The translations under genes were made by a program, and so were the position numbers. 64,000 nt of DNA, from the NCBI RefSeq assembly GCF_014204865.1, contig NZ_JACHMG010000001.1, positions 6,660,501 through 6,724,500 on the forward strand, given 5' to 3'. The notes under the pieces are model-generated. The model saw only the letters and a program-made list of their open reading frames with translations, ran no database searches and was not told the DNA's origin. Every line of letters begins with the position of its first letter. The stretch's first letter is position 1. Below, one piece after another: positions 38,771 through 45,499 of the stretch. The DNA comes from Amycolatopsis jiangsuensis (GTDB taxonomy: Bacteria > Actinomycetota > Actinomycetes > Mycobacteriales > Pseudonocardiaceae).

Positions 38771-38800
38771 GCCGGTGCCGGTGCCGGTGCCGGTGCCGGT
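38771..38800. repeat. GCCGGT microsatellite
   Basis: Five perfect tandem hexamers, followed by imperfect GCTGGA/GGGGCC variants for about 60 bases. Confidence 0.8.
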
Positions 38801-39044
38801 GCCGGTGCTGGAGCTGGGGCCGGTGCCGGAGCTGGGGCCGAGAATGGGCCGGAGCTGGGGCCGAGGTTCGCGGGCGACCGGGAGCGGGTGCGCGGGCGAC
38901 TGGAGCGGGGTGCGGGTGCGCGGGCGGCCGGAGCCGCACTCTTCTGTGGGCGTGATCACCACCTCGATCCGAATGGTTTTCGTCTTCAGTGCAAGTGTGC
39001 ACGTAGTGCCGGTGAATGCTCGAAAATGCATGACCGAATGGGAC

Positions 39045-39063
39045 TTAGGGTAGCCTTGCTCGC
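39045..39063. promoter_or_regulatory. Iron-box-like (DtxR/IdeR) site, imperfect
   Basis: TTAGGGTAGCCTTGCTCGC matches the consensus TTAGGTTAGSCTAACCTAA at 12 of 19 positions by my count: the left half is nearly perfect, the right half poor. It lies about 190 bases before the first gene of the operon, consistent with a promoter with a long leader. The strong box at 45481 near the convergent exporter supports iron control of the locus. Confidence 0.45.
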
Positions 39064-39254: not shown

Positions 39255-40232
39255 ATGCCCACACCGGAACTGCACATCCTGACCAGGTCCGAACTGGCCG
39301 GACTGGACATCTCCCCGCAGGAGGTGATCGGCGCGGTCCGGGCCGCGTACGCCGCCTATGCGGAGGGGAAATCCCGTAACCCTGCCAAACTGATGATGCC
39401 GGTGCCCGCGGGCCGTGACGCGGTGTCGTACGCCATGCTCGGGTTCGACGGCGCGCTCGAGTACGTGGGGTTCAAGACCTCCTACCGCCAAGGGACGGAC
39501 AACCCGGACAAGTACTACACGACCATCAGCCTCTACGACGACACGACCGGCCTGCCGTACGTCTTCATGGACTGCCACCGGGTCGGCGGGTCGCGGACTC
39601 CGGCGACGACCGCGTTGATCGCCGAGGAATGTGCCAGGCCCGGCGCCCGCTCGGCGTTGCTCATCGGTACCGGCCGGCAAAGCCTCAACACCCTGCCCTA
39701 CCTCGTCACCAGAATGCCCCAGTTGGAAAAGCTGCGCTTCTTCGGTACCCATCCGGAAGGCATCACAGCGACCGCGGCCACGTTCGCGCAGTACTTTCCC
39801 GACCGGAAGCTGGAACAGATCGGCGACGTGCCGTCCGCGGTCGCGGAATCCGACATCGTGATCGCCGCGTCCGGCAGGGCCGCGCACCCGCCGGTCAGGA
39901 CGAGCTGGCTCCCACCGGGCGGACTGCTGATCTCCGTGTCCAGCAAGGGGGTCGATTCGAGTGCGCTGGCCGAGGCCGACTACGCCCTGGCCACCAGCGA
40001 AAGCCAGCTCGGGGTGACGGGTTCGCGGTTCGACAGCGAGGACGGTGCCGCGGTGCTCGACGCGGAGTTCCCCGACGTCGTGGCGGGTCGCAAACCCGGC
40101 CGCCGTAGCGGGGACGACCGGGTGTTCGCCTTCTCGAGCGGCATGGTCATCACCGACATCCCGGTGGCGCACGCGTTGGCAGCCAAGGCGATCGACGCTG
40201 GTCTCGGTCAGAAGGTGCAGCTGTGGACCTGA
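39255..40232 (+). CDS. Ornithine cyclodeaminase/mu-crystallin family, SbnB-like amino acid dehydrogenase
   Basis: 325 aa. 'VIGAVRAAYAAYAEGKSRNP' and 'KTSYRQGTDNPDKYYTTISL' form the substrate lobe, and the Rossmann lobe has 'SALLIGTGRQSLNTLPYLVT' and 'SDIVIAASGRAAHPPVRTSW'. In staphyloferrin B synthesis SbnB oxidises N-(1-amino-1-carboxy-2-ethyl)-glutamate, releasing L-2,3-diaminopropionate and 2-oxoglutarate. The neighbouring SbnA- and SbnH-like genes make that role likely here, though the amino acid partner could be aspartate. ATG 39255 starts the conserved region; the ribosome site is weak. The next gene overlaps by 10 bases. Confidence 0.82.
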   Translation: MPTPELHILTRSELAGLDISPQEVIGAVRAAYAAYAEGKSRNPAKLMMPVPAGRDAVSYAMLGFDGALEYVGFKTSYRQGTDNPDKYYTTISLYDDTTGLPYVFMDCHRVGGSRTPATTALIAEECARPGARSALLIGTGRQSLNTLPYLVTRMPQLEKLRFFGTHPEGITATAATFAQYFPDRKLEQIGDVPSAVAESDIVIAASGRAAHPPVRTSWLPPGGLLISVSSKGVDSSALAEADYALATSESQLGVTGSRFDSEDGAAVLDAEFPDVVAGRKPGRRSGDDRVFAFSSGMVITDIPVAHALAAKAIDAGLGQKVQLWT

Positions 40233-41566
40233 TCACGGCGGATGTCTCGCCGGCTGTCCCGGCGAACGAGGCGAAGTGGGCGCACGAGGCACGCGCGGAC
40301 CCGCGGTTGCTGGCCGATATCGCGTATGCCGTGGGCGGGCCGTTCCACGTGTTGTTTCCTGACCAGTTCGGGGAGAACGTGCTCGCGTTGCGTGAGACGC
40401 TGAGTGCGGCAGGCGTAGACGGCACTGTCTACTTCGGCAAGAAGGCCAACAAATCGTCCTGCTGGATTCCGGAATGCGTACGTTCGGGCGCTGGAGTGGA
40501 CGTGGCCAGCGAACCGGAGCTGGTGCGCGCGCTGGCCGGTGGAGTGCGCGGTGAGGACGTGGTGGTCACCGGCGCGGCGAAGAAGGACTCGCTGCTGTGG
40601 CTGGCGATCCGGCACGGAGCGCTGATCGCGGTCGACGCGCTGGACGAACTGGACCGGCTCACCGGGCTCGCTCGGCGCACCGGGCCGGCGCGGATCCAGC
40701 TGCGGGTGCGTCCGCCGAACGACCCCACCAGCCGCTTCGGTCTCGATGAGAGCGAGCTGGAGCAAGCGCTGCACCGCTGCGTGACCGCGGCCGGTGCGCT
40801 GCGCATGGAGGGCTTTTCCTTCCACCTCAGTGGATACCTCGCCCAGCCGAGGGCAGCGTTGGCGGCGGAGCTGGTGGATCGCTGCGTACGGGCCCGCACT
40901 CTCGGACTCGACGCGTCCTCGGTGGACATCGGCGGTGGTTTCGCCGTGTCCTATGTGGATGAACAGGATTGGCGCACCTATACCGGTGACCTCCCGGCGG
41001 AATGGTTCCACGCAGGCAGGAAGTTCGGCCACTTCTACCCGTACCACCAGAACCCGGCCGGAGCCGACATGCTCGCCGCGATCCTGGATACCACAGTGGA
41101 CGGTGGGCTGACTCTGGCAGACAAGCTCACCTCGACCGGGACGAGGCTGCTCATGGAACCGGGCCGAGCGCTGCTCGACCGCGCGGGATTCAGCGTGTTC
41201 CGGGTGCAGGGCCTCAAACACCGCGGCGACTACGCGATCGCGACCGTCGGCGGGCTCAGCCTGAGTGTGTCCGAACAGTGGAAGAACAGCGAGTTCCTGC
41301 CTGATCCGCTGCTGTGGCCGCGGACCGGCGAGTACGCACCGATCGGCGTGTGCGTGGGCGGGGCCAGCTGCCTGGAGTACGACATGCTGAGCTGGCGCAA
41401 GATTCCGCTGCCGCGTCCGCCGCGGTCCGGGGACCTGCTCGTCTATCCCAGCACCGCCGGTTACCAGATGGACAAGAACGAATCGGAGTTCCACCAGCTG
41501 CCGTTGCCCGACCGGGTGGTGCTCGACCGCACCGCCGGCGGGTTCCGCTGGCGGCTGGACCGCTGA
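40223..41566 (+). CDS. PLP fold-type III decarboxylase, SbnH-like
   Basis: 447 aa, alanine-racemase-like barrel plus beta domain. The PLP Lys is in 'VYFGKKANKSSCWIPECV', followed by 'SGAGVDVASEPELVRALAGG', the His-bearing 'FSFHLSGYLAQPRAALAAEL', the phosphate loop 'SSVDIGGGFAVSY', 'MEPGRALLDRAG' and a C-terminal active-site Cys region 'CVGGASCLEYDML'. Relatives are diaminopimelate, ornithine and citryl-Dap decarboxylases; SbnH removes CO2 from a Dap-containing intermediate to leave an ethylenediamine unit. GTG with AAGG upstream; it overlaps the SbnB-like gene, so translation is coupled. Substrate is inferred from context. Confidence 0.84.
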   Translation: MDLITADVSPAVPANEAKWAHEARADPRLLADIAYAVGGPFHVLFPDQFGENVLALRETLSAAGVDGTVYFGKKANKSSCWIPECVRSGAGVDVASEPELVRALAGGVRGEDVVVTGAAKKDSLLWLAIRHGALIAVDALDELDRLTGLARRTGPARIQLRVRPPNDPTSRFGLDESELEQALHRCVTAAGALRMEGFSFHLSGYLAQPRAALAAELVDRCVRARTLGLDASSVDIGGGFAVSYVDEQDWRTYTGDLPAEWFHAGRKFGHFYPYHQNPAGADMLAAILDTTVDGGLTLADKLTSTGTRLLMEPGRALLDRAGFSVFRVQGLKHRGDYAIATVGGLSLSVSEQWKNSEFLPDPLLWPRTGEYAPIGVCVGGASCLEYDMLSWRKIPLPRPPRSGDLLVYPSTAGYQMDKNESEFHQLPLPDRVVLDRTAGGFRWRLDR

Positions 41567-41593
41567 ACCCGTCGACAAGTGAGGGACTTCGTG

Positions 41594-42667
41594 ATGCGGC
41601 GAGGCGAGAACATCGTGGCACGGATGTCGGACCTGGTGGGCAGGACACCGTTGCTCGAAGTGTGCACCACGGCCACCGGAAGCCGGCTGCTGGTCAAACT
41701 GGAACAGTTCAATCCCACCGGATCGGCCAAGGTCCGGATGGCGCGGGAAATGATCACGTCCGCGGAACGATCCGGCGCGCTGGCGCCCGGCGGGCGCATC
41801 GTGGAACCGACGTCCGGCAACACCGGTCTCGGGCTCGCGTTGATCGCGGTGGAGCGCGGCTACCGGTTCACCGCGGTCGTCGATCACCACGCCAGCGCCG
41901 GCAAGCTGCGTGCGATGGCCGCGATGGGCGCGGACCTGGTCTACGTCGGCGAGCCCGGTACCGGCGGCCCGAGCACCGTGGTGCGACGGGCGAAAGCGGC
42001 CGAGCTCGTCGCCGAGGATCCGACCGCGTTCTGGCCGGACCAGCACAACAACCCGGCCAACCGCGTGGGCTACCGCGGCCTGGCCCGGGAGCTGCTGGCC
42101 GACCTGTTCGGCGACGTGGACCACCTGATCTGCGCGATCGGCACCGGTGGCTCGCTCTGCGGTACCGCCGCCGAGCTGCGCGCGCTGGGGTCGCGCGTCC
42201 GCACGGTGGGCGTCGAACCGAAGGGCTCGATCATCTTCGGCGGCGAACCGGGCAGGTACTGGCAGACCGGCAGCGGCAGCCCGGCAGGATTCCCGGTGGG
42301 GCGCAACGTCGATTATGCTCAGATCGACGAGGGCTGCCAGGTCGGTGACGTGCCGGCCTTCGCGACCGCCCGCGTTCTGGCGCGCAGGACCGGACTGATG
42401 ATGGGAGGTTCGGCGGGAGCCGCGCTGTACGTCGCGTTGCAGCGGCTGGGCGGGCTGCCGCCGGGCAGCACTGTGGTGACTTTGGTGTGCGACGCGGGGG
42501 AGAAGTACCTCGACAGCGTGTTCGACGACGAGTGGCTGCGCGCGAAGGGCCTGTTGGCCCCCGACGTCGAGGAGGAGGTGGCAGGGCTGCTCGCCGGTCA
42601 CTCCGGCGCGGTGCCGCCGCCGCGCAACGAGGATGCCGCGACCCCGGACCTGGTGGTGCACCCGTGA
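41594..42667 (+). CDS. Cysteine synthase-family beta-replacement enzyme, SbnA-like
   Basis: 357 aa, PLP fold type II. The Schiff-base Lys is in 'EQFNPTGSAKVRMAREMI', the phosphate loop and substrate loop in 'IVEPTSGNTGLGLALIAVER', the glycine loop in 'VDHLICAIGTGGSLCGTAAE', and 'GLMMGGSAGAALYVAL' near the end. SbnA joins O-phospho-L-serine and glutamate to feed SbnB; ordinary cysteine synthases use sulfide. The Asn-Pro-Thr-Gly-Ser-Ala-Lys box is closer to the amino-donor type. GAGGG lies eight bases before ATG 41594. The next gene starts in its stop codon (GTGA). Confidence 0.85.
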   Translation: MRRGENIVARMSDLVGRTPLLEVCTTATGSRLLVKLEQFNPTGSAKVRMAREMITSAERSGALAPGGRIVEPTSGNTGLGLALIAVERGYRFTAVVDHHASAGKLRAMAAMGADLVYVGEPGTGGPSTVVRRAKAAELVAEDPTAFWPDQHNNPANRVGYRGLARELLADLFGDVDHLICAIGTGGSLCGTAAELRALGSRVRTVGVEPKGSIIFGGEPGRYWQTGSGSPAGFPVGRNVDYAQIDEGCQVGDVPAFATARVLARRTGLMMGGSAGAALYVALQRLGGLPPGSTVVTLVCDAGEKYLDSVFDDEWLRAKGLLAPDVEEEVAGLLAGHSGAVPPPRNEDAATPDLVVHP

Positions 42668-44070
42668 ACCTGGCCGTGCTGACCAAGGGGTACCGCCCGC
42701 TGGTCGCCCTCGCCGCGCCGATCGCGGGCATCCAGCTCGCGCAGGTCGCGCTGACCACGACCGACCTGGCGATGATGGGCCTGCTCGGTGTGCGGGCCGT
42801 CGCCGCGGGCGGGCTTTCGATCACGCTGTACAACCAGCTTCGCACCATGTGCGTCGGCATGGTCACCTCGGTCGGCAACCAGGTCGCCGGCGCGGTGGGC
42901 CGCGCCGAGGCCCGCACCGGAGACGGCGGGCTGGACGAAAGCGGCCGGGAAGAGGTCCGGCGGATCCTCCGTGCTTCTTTCCTGGTGGCCACCGGTGTCG
43001 GCCTGGTGGCCGCACTGGCGCTTGCCGGGCTGAGTTTCGCGCTGACCTGGTTCGGGCAGCCGCCCGAGGTGCTCGCCATGGCGCGGCCGATGATGATCGC
43101 GCTGGCACCGGGGCTGATCCCGATGCTGTGGCTGAACGTGGTGCGTCAGTTCGCGGTCGGCCTGCACCGGCCGGGTTCCCTCCTGGGCATCACGATCGTG
43201 TCCATCGGGGTCAACGCCGGTCTCGACGCGGTGTTCATCTACGGGTTGTTCGGACTTCCGGTACTGGGCCTGACCGGGGTCGGGCTCGCCACCAGCTTCG
43301 TGCAGCTGTTGACGTTCCTGGCCTTCCTCGCCCTGGTCCGCCGGGACCGGCAGCTGCGGCCGCTGCTGTCGGTCAACGCGTGGCAGGCCGACCTGGACAC
43401 GGTGAAGTCGGTGCTGCGCCTGGGTTTCCCGATCAGCCTCACCTACGGGTCGGAGGCCGGGATCACGTCGGTGGCCACCCTGATGATGGGTGCGTTCGGC
43501 CCCGTGACGCTGGCCGCGCACAACGTCGTCAACCAGTGCGCCTACATCGTCTACCAGCTCAACATCGGACTGTCACAGGGTTCGTCGATCTCGATCAGCC
43601 GGGCGGTCGGCAAGGGCGACCGGGCCGGAGCCGGCGAGGTCGCGCGCCGCGCGTTGACCCTCGGGCCGGCCATCATGACCGTGATCGGACTGGTCTACGT
43701 GATCGCGCCGGCTCCGGTGCTGAAGGTGTTCCTCGGCGGCGACGCGGACGCCGGCGTGCTGGCCGCGGCGAGCACGCTCTTGCTCTTCGCGATCCTGCAG
43801 CAGTACTGCAAGGGCACGCAGAACATCGGCGTCGGGCTGTTGCGCGGGCTGGGCGACACGAAGGCCGGATTCCGGATGACGCTGATCGGGTACTGGCTCA
43901 TCGGCACGCCGGTGATGGTGGTGTGCGGGTACGTGCTGGGTCTGCACGGCCCCGGGATCTGGATCGGCCTGTGCGCCGGGTTCGGGGCGACCGCGGTGCT
44001 GCTGCTGCGCCGGTTCCGCAGGCAGCTGCGGCCGGAGCCGGACCTGAGCAACGTCCGGATGCTGCGGTGA
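42664..44070 (+). CDS. MATE-family efflux transporter
   Basis: 468 aa with twelve membrane segments in two related halves ('LVALAAPIAGIQLAQVALTT' opens the first, 'LRLGFPISLTYGSEAGITSV' the second), the hallmark of MATE antiporters that use Na+ or H+ to export drugs and metabolites. It is the fourth gene of the operon, joined by a 4-base GTGA overlap to the SbnA-like gene. Export of the operon's product is therefore the likely role. Its end faces the iron-box-controlled MFS exporter 23 bases away. Confidence 0.92.
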   Translation: MNLAVLTKGYRPLVALAAPIAGIQLAQVALTTTDLAMMGLLGVRAVAAGGLSITLYNQLRTMCVGMVTSVGNQVAGAVGRAEARTGDGGLDESGREEVRRILRASFLVATGVGLVAALALAGLSFALTWFGQPPEVLAMARPMMIALAPGLIPMLWLNVVRQFAVGLHRPGSLLGITIVSIGVNAGLDAVFIYGLFGLPVLGLTGVGLATSFVQLLTFLAFLALVRRDRQLRPLLSVNAWQADLDTVKSVLRLGFPISLTYGSEAGITSVATLMMGAFGPVTLAAHNVVNQCAYIVYQLNIGLSQGSSISISRAVGKGDRAGAGEVARRALTLGPAIMTVIGLVYVIAPAPVLKVFLGGDADAGVLAAASTLLLFAILQQYCKGTQNIGVGLLRGLGDTKAGFRMTLIGYWLIGTPVMVVCGYVLGLHGPGIWIGLCAGFGATAVLLLRRFRRQLRPEPDLSNVRMLR

Positions 44071-44093: not shown

Positions 44094-45467
44094 TCAGCGG
44101 TTTGCCGCCACCGGTGGGGCCACAGCGGCGCTGGTGCCCGGCAGCAGCAGAGCAGCGAGCAACGCGGCGGCCGCGGCGCAGCCGAAGGTGACCGCGAACG
44201 CCACCGCGTACCCGTGCGCGCCGTGGTCACCCGCGGCGGTGCTGATCGCGGTCAGCACCGCGACGCCTGCTGCCCCGCTCGTCTGCCGCGTGGTGTTCAG
44301 CAGCCCGGCAGCGATCCCGGCGTAACCCGGTTCGACCCCGCGGGTGGCCGCCACCGTGATCGGCGTGAACGCCAGGCCGATGCCGAACCCGACCACCGCA
44401 ACCGGTATCCCGACGCCGAGCACGTACGGTGCCGCCGTCTCGGTCAGGACGGCGAGGAGCCCGAACCCGGCCGCCGCGATCAGCGAGCCGGCGACGGACG
44501 CACGCCGTAGGCCCCATCGCGGCGTGACCCGTCCGGCCAGCCGTCCGCCTGCCAGCGTGAGCACGGACGACGGCGCGAACGCCAGCCCGGCCTGCAGTGG
44601 CGAATACCCCAGCACCCCTTGCAGGTACAGGGAAAGCAGGATCGGCGTGGCGAAGAACGCCAGTCCGATGGCGAACATGGTCAGATTCGCGGCGCTGACC
44701 GTGCGCACGCGGAACAACCGCAGCGGCAGCATCGGCTCCCGGCCGCGGTGCTCCCAGCCGAGAAACGCCGACAGCAACAGGACCCCGGCCGCTCCCGGCA
44801 ACCAGCTGGTCAACGCGGTGCCGGACCCGGAGATCGCGTAGACCACCAAGGTGAGCCCCGCGGTCACCAGCAGCGCTCCGGGGAGATCGAGCGGCCGCCG
44901 TGTCCCGTCGCCGTGCGGGGGCAGAGCCGGCCGGACCAGCGCCGCGGCGAGCACGACGATCGGCACGTTGATCAGGAACACCCACCGCCAGCCGGCCGCC
45001 TGCGTGAGCACACCGCCGAGCACCGTGCCGGAAGCCGCGCCCACCGCGCCGACCATGCTCCACGTGGCGAGCGCCGAGGCCCGCCTTGCCCCGTCCGGGA
45101 CCACTGTGGTGATGCACGCCAAGGCCGTCGGCACCAGTAACGCGCCGCCGAGGCCTTGCACGGCGCGCGCGGCCAGCAGCAGCCAGGCGTTCGGCGCGAG
45201 ACCGGCGAGCACGCTGCCGACACCGAACACCACCAGGCCGGCGTACAGCACCCGGCGCAGCCCGTAGACGTCGGCGCATCGGCCGCCCAGGAGCTGAAAT
45301 CCGGCGAACACCAGCGTGTACCCGGTCACCACCCAGCCGATCCCGGCTTCGCCGAAGCCCAGTTCGCCGCGGATGCCGGGGAGCGCGACCGCCACGATCG
45401 TCGCGTCCAGAATCACTGCGAACACGCACACACAGGCCAGCACGACCACCAGCCGTTCCCCACGCAT
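44094..45467 (-). CDS. MFS exporter (DHA2-like), iron-box controlled
   Basis: 457 aa with about 14 hydrophobic segments. 'FAVILDATIVAVALPGIRGE' and 'GWVVTGYTLVFAGFQLLGGR' begin it, with motif A-like 'GGRCADVYGLRRVLYAG' and motif C-like 'AVGAASGTVLGGVLTQAAGW', typical drug:H+ antiporters. A near-perfect iron box ends the promoter 14 bases before the ATG, which has GGGAGG. Iron-regulated MFS exporters often secrete siderophores. Its position tail to tail with the Sbn-like operon suggests it shares that product or a related one. Confidence 0.92.
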   Translation of the reverse strand: MRGERLVVVLACVCVFAVILDATIVAVALPGIRGELGFGEAGIGWVVTGYTLVFAGFQLLGGRCADVYGLRRVLYAGLVVFGVGSVLAGLAPNAWLLLAARAVQGLGGALLVPTALACITTVVPDGARRASALATWSMVGAVGAASGTVLGGVLTQAAGWRWVFLINVPIVVLAAALVRPALPPHGDGTRRPLDLPGALLVTAGLTLVVYAISGSGTALTSWLPGAAGVLLLSAFLGWEHRGREPMLPLRLFRVRTVSAANLTMFAIGLAFFATPILLSLYLQGVLGYSPLQAGLAFAPSSVLTLAGGRLAGRVTPRWGLRRASVAGSLIAAAGFGLLAVLTETAAPYVLGVGIPVAVVGFGIGLAFTPITVAATRGVEPGYAGIAAGLLNTTRQTSGAAGVAVLTAISTAAGDHGAHGYAVAFAVTFGCAAAAALLAALLLPGTSAAVAPPVAANR

Positions 45468-45480
45468 ACAGCCTCCCTCG

Positions 45481-45499
45481 TTAGGTTAGGCGAACCTAA
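45481..45499. promoter_or_regulatory. Iron box (DtxR/IdeR/DmdR1 type)
   Basis: TTAGGTTAGGCGAACCTAA matches TTAGGTTAGSCTAACCTAA at 18 of 19 positions. It lies 14 bases upstream of the MFS exporter start, overlapping where its promoter must be, so iron-loaded regulator would repress it. The TetR remnant lies on the other side. Confidence 0.9.

Follow-up and report, generated by a model that had tools for sequence, protein, structure and literature searches.

EDDS is a natural EDTA-like chelator and a biodegradable rival of EDTA. Its [S,S] form is made by Amycolatopsis japonica (also named A. japonicum) with the aes genes, which are under Zur control (Spohn et al. 2016, as described in papers citing it), and zinc at 2 uM is reported to inhibit EDDS production in the known producer. 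Another compound, EDHA (ethylenediaminesuccinic acid hydroxyarginine), is assigned to a cluster of Streptomyces scabiei (Spohn et al. 2018, as cited in PMC8914351). Cluster 7.2 of Nocardia mangyaensis is described as having a MATE gene and a predicted site for DmdR1 (iron) (PMC10920908), and EDDS-like clusters are described in Corynebacterium striatum (PMC10486106). In the open literature, to which the search was confined (subscription papers not being covered), no account of the EDDS pathway or of an iron/zinc split was found.

The 64-kb stretch of Amycolatopsis jiangsuensis DNA analysed here (the window) contains, at 39255-44070, four open, undamaged and closely spaced frames on the same strand, as judged by ORF reading. 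All four lie on the plus strand and their products score above their Pfam cut-offs: an OCD/mu-crystallin-family (SbnB-like) enzyme (39255..40232, 325 aa; PF02423, 91 bits), a LysA/SbnH-like PLP-dependent decarboxylase (40223..41566, 447 aa, GTG start; PF02784, 72.4 bits), an SbnA-like PLP beta-replacement synthase (41594..42667, 357 aa; PF00291, 223.8 bits) and a MATE-family exporter (42664..44070, 468 aa; PF01554, 113.1 bits; TIGR00797, 182 bits against a cut-off of 147.4). The OCD and decarboxylase genes overlap by 10 nt, a gap of 27 nt precedes the synthase gene, and the synthase and MATE genes overlap by 4 nt. These intact frames and Pfam matches bear out the three enzymes and exporter with overlapping frames of the original prediction, as well as its lack of an NIS synthetase or NRPS, since none of the genome's IucA/IucC (NIS) or NRPS condensation domains falls within the 64-kb window. 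The same prediction had set against itself an outcome of plain CysK, OCD and LysA matches with no conserved cluster. All four genes, with order and strand kept, were found (matches above 70 bits) in 76 of the 80 named loci, that is, those fetched with the SbnA-like alignment, in actinobacterial and proteobacterial hosts, and the plain cysteine synthase/LysA/OCD reading is rejected on the strength of this conservation. The 76 include one locus (L069) whose MATE gene is cut by a contig end; of the incomplete loci, two (L025, L081) end with their contig at the expected position of the OCD gene, one (L028) has no OCD match and a decarboxylase split in two pieces, and one (L053) has no MATE match.

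The genome recognized as A. japonica (G217) by its plasmid pAmyja1 (100% match, identical coordinates) holds one copy of the operon, its four genes ordered as in the window. Identity between the window proteins and these counterparts amounts to 64% for the OCD protein (323 aligned positions), 56% for the decarboxylase (449 aligned positions), 64% for the synthase (316 aligned positions) and 62% for the MATE protein. Among named relatives the closest is Amycolatopsis minnesotensis, with 82% identity in the synthase. We strongly infer that this A. japonica operon corresponds to the published EDDS (aes) genes, and most likely its four genes enable it to make EDDS. Because the block is conserved and A. 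japonica carries the same four genes, the window operon most likely belongs to the EDDS-type operons for aminopolycarboxylic-acid metallophores, an already known kind, and the earlier proposal of EDDS or a relative is thus supported by the same ordered genes at 56-64% identity and by a widely conserved cluster. The fuller account, an EDDS-type (aes) operon with the pathway proposed below, on the iron-box side of its family and used in iron scavenging, appears quite probable as judged from sequence. Gene content and order, kinship to A. japonica, tree position and control boxes were computed.

From these features we infer the chemical steps, product and metal of the window operon in the following form. 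The SbnA-like enzyme would couple O-phosphoserine (or O-acetylserine), at its beta-carbon, with L-aspartate; the product, N-(2-amino-2-carboxyethyl)-aspartate, would hold the first arm. The second, succinyl arm would best be assigned to the SbnB-like enzyme, which, as a reductive N-alkylase working in the reductive direction with NAD(P)H, would act on the free amine and oxaloacetate. The decarboxylase would remove the serine-derived carboxyl of the diaminopropionate unit and leave the ethylenediamine bridge, these last two steps possibly occurring in either order, and the MATE protein would export the product.

The names SbnA and SbnB, used in the original prediction, denote family resemblance only. 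The window SbnA-like protein scores 234.3 bits against an NCBIfam SbnA equivalog cut-off of 349.95 (TIGR03945) and the SbnB-like protein 85.7 bits against one of 326.9 for SbnB (TIGR03944), so that equivalog identity is given up for both; the A. japonica counterparts also score under these cut-offs (229.5 and 95.9). The family likeness extends to solved structures, which include the SbnA structures 5d84-5d87 for the synthase, and pyrroline-2-carboxylate reductase, iminosuccinate reductase and SbnB for the OCD protein, the last being the 4m54 group, titled only 'putative ornithine cyclodeaminase', which we take to be SbnB. This likeness would suit an operon that supplies diaminopropionate to another pathway, with true SbnA and SbnB roles, yet such a reading is highly improbable: both proteins lie far under the cut-offs, the decarboxylase and exporter are steady members of the block, and the window has no NRPS or NIS match. 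Moreover, the genome has a second SbnA-family gene, over the cut-off, at 2.16 Mb, which adjoins an OCD-family gene and has an NRPS condensation domain some 4 kb away; its product is 31% identical to the window synthase. This separate gene makes the plain diaminopropionate reading unlikely. A different arm, whereby another amino acid or 2-oxo acid (e.g. glutamate or 2-oxoglutarate) would give an EDDS relative that is an unsymmetrical or longer chelator, is conceivable since the enzymes share no more than 56-64% identity with those of A. japonica, and relatives with a TauD gene show that a different arm is compatible with an intact block. The window OCD protein is, however, as close to the proteobacterial copies (median 66.6%, 11 loci) as to that of A. 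japonica, whereas its median identity to the low-OCD group is far lower, at 46%. This suggests that operons of the OCD-conserved type all use one substrate, and leaves the changed arm an unlikely alternative to EDDS itself.

The relatives with a TauD gene bear on the choice of arm. A TauD-family gene adjoins the operon in 30 of 36 loci with an OCD protein under 55% identical and in 0 of 53 at 55% or above (duplicates included), neighbour-gene counts that are approximate because the ORF caller sometimes picked the wrong frame. In the window, this caller displaced the decarboxylase and synthase by an antisense frame. One TauD representative scores 207 bits against the model of the arginine beta-hydroxylase VioC (cut-off 418.6), a sub-threshold match in keeping with the hydroxyarginine in the name of EDHA; the TauD-type relatives would thus represent the EDHA type, the S. 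scabiei cluster itself lying outside the comparison. No TauD-family or arginine-hydroxylase-like gene occurs among the genes flanking the window operon, and both this absence and OCD identity to the window (64% for A. japonica, a median of 46% for the low-OCD group) place it with the A. japonica operon over the TauD type; by the AU test alone, a tree that joins the window to the TauD-type outgroup was not rejected (p 0.145). Between the two types, switched and shared conserved positions number 23 and 95 in the OCD protein, 7 and 125 in the decarboxylase, 17 and 139 in the synthase and 12 and 112 in the MATE protein. Since the OCD protein changes most, it probably sets the arm that differs between the EDDS-like and hydroxyarginine-like types, and the comparison suggests that the second arm is set by the SbnB-like enzyme.

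Control sites were scored with a Zur consensus taken from PMC2823685 and with two iron matrices, the first trained on sister operons and the second on five sites at this genome's siderophore-binding-protein loci; the two are not fully independent, because the sites of the second were chosen with the first, and both resemble the published consensus (PMC1382209). A weak DtxR/IdeR-like site, TTAGGGTAGCCTTGCTCGC (39045..39063, 12/19), lies 210 nt before the operon ATG. Its scores of 9.8 bits (first matrix) and 7.5 bits (second matrix) were reached by 57/2000 and 277/2000 composition shuffles, and as a candidate iron site of the operon it is suggestive only, one of the two matrices not lifting it above noise. 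The strong iron box of the locus is found on the adjoining MFS gene only: the near-perfect TTAGGTTAGGCGAACCTAA (45481..45499) scores 27.2 bits, the highest in the window, against a maximum of 14.4 in 60 simulated 64-kb sequences, and no shuffle of 2000 reached it. It lies 13 nt from the start codon of a DHA2-type MFS transporter gene (44094..45467, minus strand; PF07690, 186.5 bits; TIGR00711, 232.1 against a cut-off of 230.2), which stands tail-to-tail with the MATE gene and possibly belongs to the same iron-responsive locus as the operon. A conserved link between MFS gene and operon was rejected, the one match beside other operons being a 33% match in Sciscionella marina.

Across the operon tree, one branch (99/98) separates 9 iron-box rows from 12 zinc-box rows, and the window falls among the former; none of 500 shuffles came out as low. 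The window falls in a set of 8 rows (96/96) that holds five iron-box rows, and in which Pseudonocardia eucalypti and Sciscionella sediminilitoris have neither an iron nor a Zur box. The ambiguous Nocardia jinanensis locus (L034; iron 13.8 bits, Zur 11/15) was left unlabelled; a plain threshold of 12 would label it iron within the zinc side, i.e. a second change. The Corynebacterium sp. locus (L068; iron 17.3 bits, OCD 51%, very long branch) was excluded from the tree; no TauD gene is clustered with it. When entire loci were scanned, Zur sites of 12/15 in three of them (L007, L118, L016) stood apart from the operon and any SBP_bac_5 importer, so that single sites of this score also occur by chance. 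The zinc control named in the original prediction fits A. japonica, whose Zur box (13/15 at -63) is as expected for the published Zur-controlled genes. No Zur box was found upstream of the window operon, the best match (10/15) equalling the maximum of the coding-sequence controls. A zinc-controlled zincophore operon, which the match in genes and order to A. japonica would favour, is for these reasons improbable, slightly more so than a changed arm, as the AU test rejects placing the window with the A. japonica clade (p-AU 0.000265) or the whole zinc side (p-AU 7.3e-08) and the adjoining MFS gene carries an iron box. Since the window copy falls on the family's iron-box side, iron scavenging would be its most likely use, possibly aided by the adjoining iron-boxed MFS transporter.

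No importer was found among the genes flanking the operon, and the genome's Peripla_BP_2 matches all lie outside the window; the Peripla_BP_2 binding protein of the A. nivea importer has no relative in this genome at E 1e-10. The genome has six relatives, 26-33% identical, of an iron-boxed SBP_bac_5 protein from Streptomyces sp. HNM0575, but their loci hold no iron site above 8.8 bits, and no importer is therefore assigned. Somewhat short of an even chance, and hence tentative, is the view that the metal switched once, from an iron-boxed basal grade, often beside FecCD-type importers, to Zur in a single lineage, partly with NikA/Opp-type importers, which includes the A. japonica zincophore operon; the window operon, on the iron side, would then produce a simple siderophore of EDTA type with neither NRPS nor NIS enzymes. 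If the sister branch answers to iron, it would offer EDDS producers that respond to another switch, and would illustrate how a small chelator pathway is reassigned between metals through control box and importer, with the enzymes unchanged.

Compared with known systems, the window operon has enzyme families in common with sbnA, sbnB and sbnH of staphyloferrin B, from which it differs in scoring under the SbnA and SbnB cut-offs and in having no NIS synthetase in the window. EDHA belongs to the same aminopolycarboxylic-acid class, and the TauD-type relatives equated with it share all four genes, whereas the window operon has no adjoining TauD gene and the OCD proteins of the low-OCD group are only about 46% identical. 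The aes operon of A. japonica has the four genes in the same order, at 56-64% identity per protein, yet it has a Zur box at -63 which the window operon lacks, and the AU test places the window outside the A. japonica clade. The aminopolycarboxylic acid metallophore class of antiSMASH 7 (PMC10320115), cluster 7.2 of N. mangyaensis with its MATE gene and iron-regulator site (PMC10920908) and the EDDS-like clusters of C. striatum (PMC10486106) are all of the class of the window operon. In their available text, these three reports offer single-species or pangenome predictions, without a family-wide comparison of iron and zinc boxes; that the control boxes follow the operon tree is new here.

The operon at 39255-44070 on the forward strand consists of four intact genes, coding for an OCD-family, SbnB-like enzyme (39255-40232), a PLP decarboxylase (40223-41566), an SbnA-like PLP synthase (41594-42667) and a MATE transporter (42664-44070). 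Their junctions, with overlaps of 10 nt and 4 nt and one gap of 27 nt, bear out the original prediction of an SbnB/SbnH/SbnA/MATE-type set with overlapping frames. The lack of an NIS synthetase or NRPS noted originally is likewise confirmed, the IucA/IucC and condensation-domain matches of the 8.05-Mb genome all lying outside the window, with zero within it. The SbnA and SbnB names hold as family resemblance and fail as NCBIfam-level identity: the window synthase and OCD both score far under the SbnA and SbnB cut-offs, as their Amycolatopsis japonica counterparts also fall under them, and the two labels are, judged from sequence, family resemblances. Another SbnA-family gene of the same genome (contig C1, 2163210-2164106), 31% identical to the window synthase at the protein level, does exceed the NCBIfam cut-off (373.6 bits). 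It adjoins an OCD-family gene (2162167-2163066), and some 4 kb away there is an NRPS condensation domain (2158058-2159380); this combination, at 2158058-2164106, is perhaps a diaminopropionate-using NRPS cluster.

Among 7996 candidates scored, 2752 synthase relatives were found at E 1e-3, of which 120 were listed, the nearest named one among these matches being that of Amycolatopsis minnesotensis (82%). A scan of named genomes, for which 30 of these 120 proteins were aligned as the query, gave 227 loci; in 76 of the best 80, which were kept, the four genes recur in identical order and strand (hits >70 bits). Represented among them are loci of Nocardia, Sciscionella, Streptomyces and Pseudonocardia, and also of Rhizobium, Bradyrhizobium, Methylobacterium, Trinickia, Undibacterium and Erwinia. 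In 23 of 80 genomes of the window's genus (its own counted) the synthase finds a match at E 1e-80, and in four of the 23 it is a distant one (best E 3e-134 to 4e-129). Loci L020 and L021, on two scaffolds of Nocardia albiluteola NEAU-G5, are identical over 16987 bases, so that either the region was duplicated recently or the assembly contains it twice.

When 89 four-gene loci besides the window were compared, some being copies of one locus, OCD identity to the window proved bimodal, at least 55% in 53 and lower in 36, and a TauD-family gene is clustered beside the operon in 30 of these 36 low-OCD loci versus 0 of the 53. The one TauD-type gene scanned contains a TauD domain and scores 207 bits for VioC (arginine beta-hydroxylase) and 243.4 for GntD, both below cut-off. 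A second known product, ethylenediaminesuccinic acid hydroxyarginine (EDHA), is named with its cluster in the accessible text of PMC8914351. The TauD-bearing low-OCD type would fit the EDHA type, the S. scabiei EDHA cluster being known here by description, whereas the window operon groups with the EDDS-like loci, the first type. For the two groups (OCD at least 55% versus low-OCD), identity to the window has medians of 66 versus 46 for OCD, 56 versus 54 for the decarboxylase, 65 versus 59 for the synthase and 62 versus 51 for MATE; in 11 proteobacterial loci the OCD median is 66.6%. When only positions are counted whose conservation reaches 90% in each of the two types (31 and 20 selected loci, 19 for MATE), the ratio of switched to shared positions is 23/95 for OCD, where the decarboxylase has 7/125, the synthase 17/139 and MATE 12/112, which makes OCD the enzyme most altered between product types; this SbnB-like enzyme probably sets the second arm. 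A third arrangement, decarboxylase-OCD-aminotransferase-synthase without a MATE match, occurs in same-genus genomes (L122:4583-9218, with aminotransferase PF00155; L123:4939-9630, adjoining Peripla_BP_2/FecCD-cluster genes; L128:4518-9071) and possibly leads to another aminopolycarboxylate product.

The chemistry of SbnA and SbnB is established, and together with solved relatives of the OCD (these include pyrroline-2-carboxylate reductase, SbnB and iminosuccinate reductase) it suggests a simplest route, of which we infer all chemical steps and their order. The synthase would join aspartate and O-phosphoserine, the OCD would reductively couple the free amine to oxaloacetate, decarboxylation by the PLP decarboxylase would follow, and MATE would export the product. 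The second arm, left unplaced originally, may thus be accounted for by the OCD coupling. The proposed OCD direction is reductive; SbnB runs oxidatively in staphyloferrin B synthesis.

The genome of the known [S,S]-EDDS producer A. japonica, recognised by its plasmid pAmyja1 (100% match over identical coordinates), holds a single synthase match, in an operon sharing the window's gene order, with 56-64% identity for all four proteins (OCD 64%, decarboxylase 56%, synthase 64%, MATE 62%). A Zur-box-like site, AGACAATCATTTTCA (13/15), lies 63 nt upstream, in agreement with the zinc control of A. japonicum named originally and with the accessible portions of open papers, in which the EDDS genes were discovered via Zur sites and EDDS production is inhibited by zinc. 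Operon, site and papers together strongly imply that the aes operon in print and this one are the same.

After identical ones were dropped from a set of 111, the upstream regions of 104 distinct loci were scored with a DtxR/IdeR-like iron-box matrix and the Zur consensus from the accessible text of PMC2823685, coding-sequence controls of 350 nt from these loci reaching at most 11.1 bits (iron) and 10/15 (Zur). Among 47 actinobacterial EDDS-type loci, window excluded, an iron site of at least 12 bits stands directly upstream of OCD in 11, a Zur site of at least 12/15 in 14, both in 0 and neither in 22. A whole-locus scan of 18 of these 22 revealed in 8 a Zur site (12-13/15) at an adjacent SBP_bac_5 importer, centred 20-42 nt from the predicted importer gene start. 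One such protein has as best solved relative 8efz, a family-5 solute-binding protein with ligand unstated (166 bits), nickel-binding solved proteins scoring about 100 bits and lower. Five iron-side loci (L009, L018, L020, L035, L036) have iron boxes at the Peripla_BP_2-cluster gene of an adjacent FecCD-type importer. In Streptomyces sp. HNM0575 the iron box belongs to an SBP_bac_5 importer instead, so the kind of importer does not strictly follow the metal. Upstream of OCD in 46 distinct low-OCD loci there are one iron site (L068) and zero Zur sites, a count that says little because in the TauD type this stretch is mostly the TauD gene. A Peripla_BP_2-cluster gene lies nearby in nine proteobacterial loci (Pfam on one). 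Near Nocardia iron-side operons, genes for a histidine kinase and a response regulator form a pair (L035:10681-12842, similar in L036 and L037; Pfam: L035 only), and iron boxes scoring 15.5-23.5 bits lie between the two.

A careful tree was built on the three enzymes OCD, decarboxylase and synthase (37 selected rows, three low-OCD loci as outgroup; five of the twelve zinc labels taken from the importer's box, the ambiguous L034 unlabelled, L068 excluded). In it one branch parts the 9 iron-labelled from the 12 zinc-labelled rows, with support 99/98 and presence in 100% of 200 bootstrap trees; label shuffles gave as low a result in 0 of 500. The split recurs in a quick 52-row tree that carried earlier, looser labels (8 iron, 9 Zur). 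Iron rows are basal under the low-OCD root, and the window falls in an 8-row set (96/96) containing five of them. With groups named after the tree was seen, AU tests reject placing the window in the clade of A. japonica (p-AU 0.000265) or anywhere with the zinc side as a whole (p-AU 7.3e-08) and leave its placement with the outgroup unrejected (p 0.145).

Before the operon itself, the best iron-like site, at 39045, is a weak one, at 9.8 bits by the first matrix and 7.5 by the second. Shuffles reach these scores in 57 and 277 of 2000 cases, respectively, and about 0.55 such sites are expected per simulated 64 kb (first matrix); it is the sole exact genome match of TTAGGNTAGSCTT, a pattern composed after the site was seen. 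The window's strongest iron box is the near-perfect TTAGGTTAGGCGAACCTAA at 45481-45499 (27.2 bits; maximum in 60 simulated 64-kb sequences 14.4; 0 of 2000 shuffles reach the score), 13 nt before a DHA2-type MFS gene (44094-45467, reverse strand) convergent on the MATE gene. The motif is probably in use in this genome, since boxes of 16-27 bits stand at 5 of its 9 siderophore-binding-protein (Peripla_BP_2) loci. Kinship in the tree and the iron-boxed neighbour gene make iron control of the operon likely. The long stretch that precedes the operon also carries a GCCGGT tandem repeat (38771-38840, period 6, 11.7 copies), and more short repeats continue to 38934.

By its gene content the window operon is most likely of the aminopolycarboxylic-acid metallophore type, a known class for which antiSMASH 7 already holds a rule, according to the accessible text of PMC10320115. 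Added here are the iron-side position, the single-branch split of iron and zinc boxes, and evidence for the SbnB-like enzyme setting the second arm. In the accessible text of PMC10920908, one Nocardia cluster of the class is already listed as having a predicted iron-regulator site.
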